In this document: positions 1 through 9,986 of the stretch, one piece after another | Numbering within the stretch: the stretch's first letter is position 1 | Layout of the letters: each line of letters starts with the position of its first letter | NCBI GenBank assembly: GCA_903851195.1 | Contig: CAINNJ010000019.1 | Location: 1 to 64,000, forward strand | Reading direction: 5' to 3' | Source of the DNA: an uncultured Acidobacteriia bacterium | Lineage (GTDB): Bacteria > Acidobacteriota > Terriglobia > Bryobacterales > Bryobacteraceae | DNA: 64,000 nucleotides | The notes under the pieces: generated by a model | Told to the model about the DNA's origin: nothing | Seen by the model: only the letters and a program-made list of their open reading frames with translations | Database searches by the model: none | Position numbers and translations under genes: made by a program

Positions 1-385
<385 letters not shown>

Positions 386-8425: not shown

Positions 8426-8857
8426 ATGAAGAGAATGCTCCTCGCTCTCACGGCTCTGACCCTGGGACTTTCCCTGGCCGGAACCTCGCAAACTCCCCCG
8501 CCCCGCAAGCACCAGGTGGTTCTTCAGATGAACACGGATGTCGGCGATTCCTGGTCGCAGTTGCTGGGGAACGTGGGCAATATCCAGAATGCGTTCGGCG
8601 CCGGCAATATCCAGATCGAAGTGGTGACCTACGGCAAAGGAATCGCCCTGCTGCTGAAATCCAACGCGGCGTATGAGGAGCGGATCCGCAAAGCCGTGGA
8701 CTCCGGCGTGGTGTTTGCCGTCTGCAAAAATTCGATGCGGTCGCGGAACGTCAAACCGGAAGATCTCTTTGCGTTCGCCACGCCGGTGGATTCGGGCGTC
8801 GCGGAGCTGATCCGGAAACAGGAAGCGGGTTGGTCTTATGTACGGGCAGGTGAGTAA
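8426..8857 (+). CDS. DsrE/DsrF-family protein with signal peptide
   Basis: 143 residues. An N-terminal hydrophobic segment (about residues 4-20) looks like a signal peptide, so the protein is likely periplasmic. The remainder matches the DsrE-like fold: HQVVLQMNTD opening strand, a VTYGKGIALLL strand-helix, and AVCKNSMR containing Cys100, the position used for sulfur handling in this family. It lies 51 bases before the deiodinase-like gene on the same strand and may be cotranscribed with it, suggesting a thiol/chalcogen redox context. The start is fixed by the signal peptide. Confidence 0.8.
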   Translation: MKRMLLALTALTLGLSLAGTSQTPPPRKHQVVLQMNTDVGDSWSQLLGNVGNIQNAFGAGNIQIEVVTYGKGIALLLKSNAAYEERIRKAVDSGVVFAVCKNSMRSRNVKPEDLFAFATPVDSGVAELIRKQEAGWSYVRAGE

Positions 8858-8908
8858 GAGGCTGTAGTAGAAACCAGGTATTGCGCCGGCAGGGCTCCTC
8901 GCGGTCAA

Positions 8909-9613
8909 ATGACGATGTCAATGCGCAGGATCGCAGCCCGGACAGCCCTGGCCCTCGTGGCGCTCTACAGCGTCGCGTTGGCCTTTATCGCAGTCGCGAT
9001 GCGCCAACCGCCGGAGCGCTTTGCCGGCGCCATGAAGTACGCAGGCCCGGTTCCCTTCCTGCTCTTCCCCTTCGAGACGCTCTGGAAATCGGCGCGCGCG
9101 GGCCGGATTCATCCCGGCGACTCCGCACCCGATTTCACCCTGCCCGTGCTGGACGGCCAAGGCAACGTCACGCTGTCGTCGTTCCGGGGCAAAAGACCCG
9201 TCGTGCTGGTCTTCGGCAGCTATACCTGACCGCCCTTTCGCCGGGAGGTTCCCGCGCTCGCCAAACTTTACGAGCAGTACAGGAATGACGTGGAATTCTT
9301 CGTCGTCTACATCACGGAGGCGCACTCCACGGACCTCTGGCAGATGGCGAGCAACGTAAAAGACGGCGTGCTCTTCGGGAATCCGACCACGGTCGCCGAG
9401 CGGGAGCAGGTCGCCGAGTCCTGCGTCCGCAAACTGCACATCCCGTTCCCGGCGCTGATCGACGGCATTGAAAACCGCGTGGAAAAGGCCTATACGGGCT
9501 GGCCGGACCGGCTTTATCTGATCGGAAAAGATGGCGTGGTCCGGTTCAAAACGGAGCCAGGACCGTTCGGCTTTTCCGCGGCGGACCTTGCCGCCGCGCT
9601 GGCGCGCCTGTAG
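8909..9613 (+). CDS. Iodothyronine-deiodinase-family selenoprotein (TGA read as Sec)
   Basis: Frame 8909-9613 is interrupted only by TGA at 9227-9229. Read as selenocysteine (Sec107), it gives 234 residues: an N-terminal membrane anchor (about 8-30), then a thioredoxin-like fold with GDSAPDFTLPVLD, FGSYT-U-PPFRR, VVYITEAHSTDLW and a PDRLYLIGKDG..GPFGF tail. FG(S)xTUPPF, YIxEAH and the RLY..GP tail are hallmarks of the deiodinase family (PF00837-like). The frame continues uninterrupted, with family motifs on both sides, and a SECIS-like hairpin follows the TGA. In bacteria these proteins probably act as membrane-anchored reductases or peroxiredoxins; the substrate is unknown. Alternatives are a nonsense mutation or a sequencing error in a Cys (TGC/TGT) version. 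Confidence 0.85.
9240..9257 (+). promoter_or_regulatory. Candidate bacterial SECIS hairpin
   Basis: A 5-bp stem CGGGA (9242-9246) / TCCCG (9250-9254) encloses the loop GGT, with two further pairs (9240-9241 with 9256-9257) if C9255 is bulged. Seventeen bases separate the TGA (9227-9229) from the loop. Bacterial SECIS elements lie within the coding sequence shortly after UGA and carry a G in the first two loop positions, as here. SelB recognition is inferred. Confidence 0.6.
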
Positions 9614-9623
9614 AATTCCGGGC

Positions 9624-9986
9624 ATGGAACAGAGCCCGGCCGAAGATCACCTGGCGCGCGTAAGGCGTCTCTGTCTGGCGCTGCCGGACACGTCGGAGAA
9701 GCTTTCGCACGGCGAGCCAACATTCTTTGTCCGCAAGAAAGTCTTCGTGATGTTCGCCAATAATCACCACAACGATGGCCATGTTGCGGTCTGGATTCCC
9801 GCTGCGCCTGGCGAGCAGGCCGCACTCATCCACCAGGCTCCGGACGTTTACTACAAGCCACCCTATGTCGGCGTGCGCGGGTGGGTCGGGATCGAACTGG
9901 CCCGGGTCGGGGACGACGAACTCGCCGCTCACATCGGCGAAGCGTGGCGGCTTACGGGAGCGCAAAAGCCACGAGCGCGTCGCTAG
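9624..9986 (+). CDS. MmcQ/YjbR-family protein
   Basis: 120 residues from the ATG ten bases after the selenoprotein stop. Family features are LALPDTSEKLSHGEPTFFV near the N-terminus, FANNHHNDGHVAVW in the middle, and YYKPPYVGVRGWVGIEL, the typical MmcQ/YjbR (DUF419) core. Members are small cytoplasmic proteins with a fold like some DNA-binding domains; their function is poorly known. The 3' end overlaps the convergent dehydrogenase gene by 35 bases. Confidence 0.8.
   Translation: MEQSPAEDHLARVRRLCLALPDTSEKLSHGEPTFFVRKKVFVMFANNHHNDGHVAVWIPAAPGEQAALIHQAPDVYYKPPYVGVRGWVGIELARVGDDELAAHIGEAWRLTGAQKPRARR

Follow-up and report, generated by a model that had tools for sequence, protein, structure and literature searches.

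Animal iodothyronine deiodinases activate and inactivate thyroid hormone. A gene of the same family, seemingly cut in two by a TGA codon, lies in the genome of an uncultured Acidobacteriia bacterium and raises two questions: whether this codon is read as selenocysteine (Sec), and what such a protein would do in a bacterium. The window, the stretch of 64,000 nucleotides analysed here, opens contig 19 of a genome of 7.7 Mb that is 99.7% complete. Its minus strand carries a partial bacterial 16S rRNA (window 1-385, model positions 1-404), cut at the contig start. Judged from its sequence and from those of its relatives, the region 8909-9613 is a well-supported, real selenoprotein gene of the deiodinase family, where "deiodinase" is a family name and makes no claim of activity. 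The joint reading of the product as a selenoprotein, a deiodinase-family member and a membrane-anchored reductase has a probability of about 0.88, a figure that excludes the substrate.

With TGA read as Sec, the plus-strand frame from 8909 to 9613 encodes 234 residues followed by a TAG stop, and its single in-frame TGA is codon 107 (9227-9229). Under the standard code, in which TGA is a stop, the frame splits into two ORFs, 8909-9229 and 9290-9613. The earliest possible start is the ATG at 8909. Codon 107 falls within the motif FGSYT-U-PPFRREVP, and YITEAH and RLYLIGKDG..GPFGF follow further on in the same frame. Residues 56-233 of the product match PF00837 (T4_deiodinase) with 97.2 bits, against a cut-off of 27, and 21 of 21 aligned family members match it as well. 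These results bear out the sequence-only reading, which had described a frame open save for the TGA at 9227, placed that TGA exactly at the deiodinase catalytic position (FGSYT-U-PPF), recognized the family motifs YITEAH and RLYLIG..GPFG downstream and proposed a comparison with PF00837.

The same codon can be followed through homologous loci. Matches at E 1e-15 or better occur in 32 of 101 genomes (100 relatives plus the genome of the window) and, by the same search, in 35 of a wider set of 396 genomes spread across the phylum; a scan of GTDB contigs gave four loci. The 63 loci compared here are part of all the genome matches found, and L022, contained letter for letter inside L019, was dropped as a copy. 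At the Sec column the codon is TGA in 45 loci, Cys in 14, GGA (Gly) in one and unreadable in three; the 45 include two copies in one genome (L027 and L100) and two loci with identical domains (L086 and L087). Nearly all readable loci have TGA or Cys at this position and reading continues past it, in line with what had been proposed for codon 107 from the window alone. The in-frame TGA is not a chance occurrence, because homology spans it and so many of these loci have TGA at that very codon. The three unreadable loci (L039, L048 and L049) are frameshifted or truncated, with frameshifts breaking L039 and L048; in L039 a TGA is visible in another frame. In L036 the Sec codon reads GGA, but the hairpin sequence after it is kept, which fits either a recent change or an error in sequencing.

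Two groups of relatives lie further off. L085-L088 form a distinct group, distant from the main tree group, with TGA at the same codon and motifs such as GAIT-U-PPY (L085) and GAIT-U-APY (L088). Plasmid and phage collections yielded distant matches only, in 11 plasmid-collection records and one phage-collection record; of those among the 11 that carry an annotation, one is called deiodinase-like and the others are of thioredoxin or peroxidase type. On the Mycolicibacterium plasmid NZ_CP126902.1 (L128:2333-4303), a distant protein annotated as "deiodinase-like" overlaps a carboxymuconolactone decarboxylase-family gene at that gene's end and has a glutaredoxin-domain gene after it.

The genome that contains the window also contains the apparatus for inserting Sec. 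Its tRNA-Sec scores 69 bits against a cut-off of 47, and ARAGORN agrees (tRNA-SeC, anticodon tca). SelB scores 347 bits (cut-off 242), SelA 491 bits (cut-off 268) and SelD 356 bits (cut-off 125), so that selA, selB, selD and the tRNA-Sec gene, for which a search of the genome had been suggested, are all present. The selD gene (L060, contig 23:19353-20273) itself carries a TGA in frame, close to where the match begins, and a predicted hairpin follows it. Also on contig 23, 24 nucleotides past the tRNA-Sec gene (L014:9233-9327 by ARAGORN), lies a phage-type tyrosine integrase (PF00589, 90.7 bits; L014:9352-10515), and the tRNA-Sec gene may serve as the insertion site of a mobile element.

Across genomes, tRNA-Sec was detected in 38 of the 45 that have the TGA form, a count that combines 18 of 21 with 21 of 25, shares G096 between the two sets and omits G031, where tRNA-Sec is present and the homolog copy is in two pieces. 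None was found in the remaining seven TGA-form genomes (G056, G061, G063, G124, G188, G331 and G339; completeness 64 to 96%). The tRNA is also present in 7 of 9 genomes having only stop-free forms, in 3 out of 20 match-free genomes, taken as they were listed (18 of those 20 come from one family), and in 83 of the 101 genomes comprising the window's own and its close relatives. Its co-occurrence with the TGA form gives weak support, because tRNA-Sec is common among the close relatives anyway.

Further evidence comes from the bases that follow the codon. A bacterial SECIS hairpin is recognized on the plus strand at 9240-9257 (GCCGGGA-GGU-UCCCG-GC), with a core stem formed by 9242-9246 and 9250-9254 and an apical GGU loop at 9247-9249; close homologs can form the same structure with an apical GGU. 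It lies just past the UGA and has a small loop with a G, the arrangement by which bacterial selenoprotein hairpins are recognized. In 27 distinct gap-free sequences in one register, made up of a first set of 21, from which L020 had been left out, and of the six with the window's register chosen from 21 further TGA sequences, 97.8% of the cells of the five core pairs are paired. Changes on both sides occur at all five core pairs (10 cells); shuffled data give 0.8 such pairs on average, and none of 500 shuffles reaches as high. Sliding the registers by one to three columns gives much worse pairing than the true register. The first 21 sequences alone give 98.1% paired cells and both-side changes at four of the five pairs. 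When the register is held fixed and every one of the 42 TGA sequences is counted, 167 of the 210 core cells are paired; most of the remaining sequences reach five of five if stem shift and loop size are left free, a latitude with which some would do so by chance alone. Some of the stem changes alter the protein too, as in L038, where R-S-Q-V-G-K stands in place of the R-R-E-V-P-A of the window.

Synonymous variation points the same way. The hairpin position was fixed before the synonymous variation of the codons was examined. At the four codons that span the top of the hairpin (CGG GAG GTT CCC), 19 close Sec homologs differ synonymously by 0.026 on average, whereas the remaining 51 scored codons average 0.50. 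Only 18 of 100,000 random four-codon sets are as low, and the hairpin-top stretch ranks first of 52. The same four codons vary in eight Cys paralogs, which are under no SECIS constraint.

Single-sequence folding was set aside as proof of the SECIS; covariation and synonymous constraint were used in its place. Folded alone, the window's 51 nucleotides from the UGA prefer another structure (z -0.88), and the probability of the core pair 18-26 is only 0.08 there; it exceeds 0.5 in 13 of the 21 sequences. The isolated hairpin has a folding energy of -9.8 kcal/mol (z -1.14). The competing fold uses bases right after the UGA, which would be covered by a ribosome positioned at that codon. Rfam gives no SECIS-type match within 8800-9700.

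The protein itself has the layout of a membrane-anchored enzyme. An AlphaFold model built from 21 sequences (mean pLDDT 94.0, pTM 0.89) shows N-terminal helices followed by a thioredoxin-like core. A transmembrane helix is predicted for residues 5-31 (8921-9001), where the Kyte-Doolittle profile has its maximum of 2.50 at residue 13; the membrane anchor noticed at first sight ahead of the Sec is thus predicted by both model and hydropathy. Linker helices modelled over residues 35-62 (9011-9094; 35-45, 48-52 and 55-62) lead from the membrane helix to the thioredoxin/peroxiredoxin-like deiodinase core, residues 66-234 (9104-9610), which is defined by PF00837 and by Foldseek matches to 4tr3 and 9h48. 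A membrane helix followed by linker helices is the predicted arrangement expected of the deiodinase family. Among 21 aligned members, 19 have a hydrophobic N-terminal stretch of at least 1.77 (Kyte-Doolittle) and 18 have a net positive charge ahead of it. In the window's protein the charges, +3 before the helix and +2 after, follow the positive-inside rule only weakly. The catalytic domain most likely lies outside the cytoplasm, facing the periplasm. By eye, the N-termini of L038 and L040 resemble cleavable signal peptides.

Comparison with solved structures places the protein beside the animal enzymes. By sequence, the nearest are mouse Dio3 (4tr3, E 2e-19) and Dio2 (9h48, E 3.5e-14), and against the family profile Dio3 reaches 117 bits and Dio2 108 bits, with the next chain at 39. 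By fold, Foldseek ranks Dio3 4tr3 first (E 3.3e-12, TM 0.77 by target) and Dio2 9h48 second (E 5.4e-12, TM 0.81). As in animal Dio1-3, the Sec stands at the same place in G-S-x-T-U-P-P-F within the same fold. The accessible text of a study of the Dio2 structure lists Ser127, Thr129, Sec130, Tyr157, Glu160, His162, Trp167 and His182 as active-site surroundings, gives Cys205 as a distal cysteine and describes full-length models that have a long membrane helix at the N-terminus together with one or two linker helices (PMC11592359). The modelled helices of the window protein resemble those described there, and its Ser104, Thr106, Sec107, Tyr134, Glu137, His139 and Trp144 correspond to residues of this set. 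Conservation and alignments with Dio3 and Dio2 identify Tyr134, Glu137, His139 and Trp144 (9308-9340) as the equivalents of Tyr157, Glu160, His162 and Trp167 of mouse Dio2, while Arg201 (9509-9511) aligns with the Arg of FERLYVI in Dio3. The Tyr, Glu and His of YITEAH are each present in 63 of 63 rows; over the same rows, which were found by similarity, Ser is present in 57, Thr in 52, Trp in 51 and Arg201 in 48.

The differences from the animal enzymes are equally specific. Unlike them, the window gene has a bacterial SECIS inside its coding region. Tyr105 occupies the place of the proximal Cys of Dio1 and Dio3. The second relay His (Dio2 His182, Dio3 His219) is absent, its position aligning with Pro159 or Thr161, and over residues 157-163 of 21 members His occurs only in L025 and L035, at different positions. 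The distal Cys (Dio2 Cys205) is absent too: its Dio3 counterpart aligns with Pro181, and an extra cysteine, Cys172 (9422-9424), lies nine residues earlier. Cys172 is present in 40 of the 63 rows, among them all 23 of the closest Sec rows and all nine TPR-type Cys rows; it is in none of the nine rows of the group L020, L071-L076, L078 and L079. The best NCBIfam match, NF038285 (deiodinase_rel), covers residues 70-232 on profile positions 179-341 with 195.6 bits, below its cut-off of 250, and leaves the first half of the 347-position model unmatched.

A natural cysteine counterpart exists in the same genome. This paralog (C39:31354-31824; L015:4730-6376) has N-terminal TPR repeats and a PF00837 domain at its C-terminal end. 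It contains FGSYSCPNFR and EAHSTEQW and a Cys at the Cys172 position, with Cys (TGC) in place of Sec and PNF in place of the PPF of the window protein. Eight further Cys proteins were typed as TPR proteins by their long open frames and their place in the tree, the Pfam scan covering the window genome's copy only.

In a tree that includes Acidobacteriota as the sole bacterial phylum and has a very long ResA outgroup branch, 23 Sec proteins of the window's type form one supported group with L036 (97/84), and the nine TPR-type Cys proteins form a separate one (100/99). The two mouse deiodinases fall among nine other Acidobacteriota Sec proteins (97/85). Placing the mouse enzymes outside those nine is not rejected by the AU test (p 0.33), and four AU tests gave p values from 0.13 to 0.42. 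That Acidobacteriota hold the ancestral type, a membrane selenoenzyme with UPPF and the active site of the animal enzymes that dehalogenates aromatics in the periplasm, and are the source lineage of the animal deiodinases, is a scenario that we regard as unlikely.

The genes around the locus were considered as a clue to function and rejected as such, since no steady neighbor occurs in 37 loci and none suggests a substrate. Upstream, 51 nucleotides from the selenoprotein gene, a DsrE-family gene (43.1 bits; 8426-8857, plus strand) has a signal-like N-terminus and an exported-looking product. Downstream, a YjbR gene starts at 9624 on the same strand, 10 nucleotides away. Neither DsrE nor YjbR has a tblastn match (E 1e-3) in 40 other stretches, 39 of them with a homolog. 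The 37 loci compared have no conserved gene neighborhood by a simple ORF-picking procedure that misses short genes, the window's DsrE gene among them: one cluster of mostly large proteins recurs in 11 of the 37 at varying positions, and clusters other than this one and the deiodinase occur in five loci at most.

Taken from sequence comparison, the best reading of the product is a membrane-bound, probably periplasmic, Sec-dependent reductase. The ribosome would decode the UGA at codon 107 as selenocysteine, a step for which the sequence evidence is strong, aided by the SECIS hairpin starting about 10 nucleotides past the UGA and by the host's SelB, tRNA-Sec, SelA and SelD. The product would be held in the membrane by its one N-terminal helix, followed by the short linker helices and the catalytic domain. 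Sec107 would act as the nucleophile, with Ser104, Thr106, Tyr134, Glu137 and His139 assisting as proposed for animal deiodinases, in a reaction that may reduce a small substrate by two electrons. The oxidized selenium would then be resolved by Cys172, the candidate resolving cysteine, or directly by an outside thiol. As to that substrate, a peroxide or another oxidized small molecule is quite conceivable, if at somewhat less than even odds; a halogenated aromatic is a tentative candidate, a protein disulfide is improbable and something else altogether is unlikely.

The first specific form of such a reductase is a periplasmic, peroxiredoxin-like peroxidase in which Sec reacts and Cys172 resolves. 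AhpC-TSA (57.7 bits) and Redoxin (49.3 bits) match the protein more weakly than PF00837 does, though above their own cut-offs, and AhpE-type and other peroxiredoxins, whose overall fold the window protein has in common, are among the Foldseek matches. The constancy of Cys172 in the closest Sec and TPR-type rows fits a resolving role, and the carboxymuconolactone decarboxylase-family and glutaredoxin-domain genes adjoining the Mycolicibacterium homolog hint at peroxide or thiol chemistry. The YITEAH residues kept in every row are those of deiodinases, however, the Dio structures rank above the peroxiredoxins, and Cys172 is missing in 23 of the 63 rows. A peroxidase is a plausible proposal that falls short of an even chance.

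The second is a genuine reductive dehalogenase, in which Sec107 would attack the halogen on the phenolic ring of natural organohalogens and release halide as animal deiodinases do. A Sec placed as in animals with UPPF, the match of Ser104, Thr106, Tyr134, Glu137, His139 and Trp144 to the Dio2/Dio3 set and a similar predicted succession of membrane helix, linker helices and core all speak for it. Against this, the animal His182/His219 and distal Cys positions are not conserved, no neighbor recurs across the compared loci, and bacteria are not expected to have thyroid hormones, according to the accessible part of a 2005 report (PMC1088965). We consider dehalogenation possible but rather doubtful.

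A ResA/TlpA-type thiol-disulfide oxidoreductase acting on proteins would likewise be membrane-anchored at its N-terminus, as ResA is. ResA structures come next after the deiodinases in the fold search, and the overall fold is common to both. Unlike ResA/TlpA, the window protein has neither CxxC nor UxxC, since UPPF has no Cys three residues on, and it carries the deiodinase EAH..D.W loop instead; the NCBIfam ResA model reaches 40.8 bits against a cut-off of 170. This assignment is very improbable. Finally, a reading in which no selenoprotein is made, the TGA being a genuine stop codon, an error of sequencing or the mark of a decayed gene, could appeal to the GGA of L036 and the frameshifts of L039 and L048, and is scarcely credible in view of the recurrent TGA at the same codon with homology on both sides, the SECIS covariation and the full Sec machinery.

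Proteins of this kind have a history in print. The accessible part of the 2005 report, on the Sargasso Sea, describes bacterial deiodinase-like selenoproteins with Sec and Cys forms and a bacterial SECIS, for which a redox role was thought possible (PMC1088965), and they appear again in that of the 2008 GOS report (PMC2398784). Reviews of 2022 and 2026, in their accessible text, tabulate them as UxxC (PMC9312934, PMC13188914). The window gene resembles the 2005 and 2008 proteins, as they are described there, in PF00837, Sec, a bacterial SECIS and the occurrence of Sec and Cys forms. It differs from the UxxC of the reviews, having UPPF without such a Cys; the 2008 table, in its accessible part, is without a UxxC motif, and the comparison with the 2005 and 2008 set is by description only. 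A search for deiodinase with Acidobacteria or Solibacter, in a collection of open-access journal papers and judged by title, found no report of this group.

The window gene thus adds a member to a kind that, by the accessible text of these reports, has been in print since 2005 with its function uncharacterized. The locus offers a member that is full-length and membrane-anchored, with an active site like that of the animal enzymes; its genome has the complete set of Sec genes, its core recurs in many homologs, and the natural Cys paralog in the same genome is a built-in comparison. Together, the locus and its paralog make the role of deiodinases before thyroid hormone directly testable.
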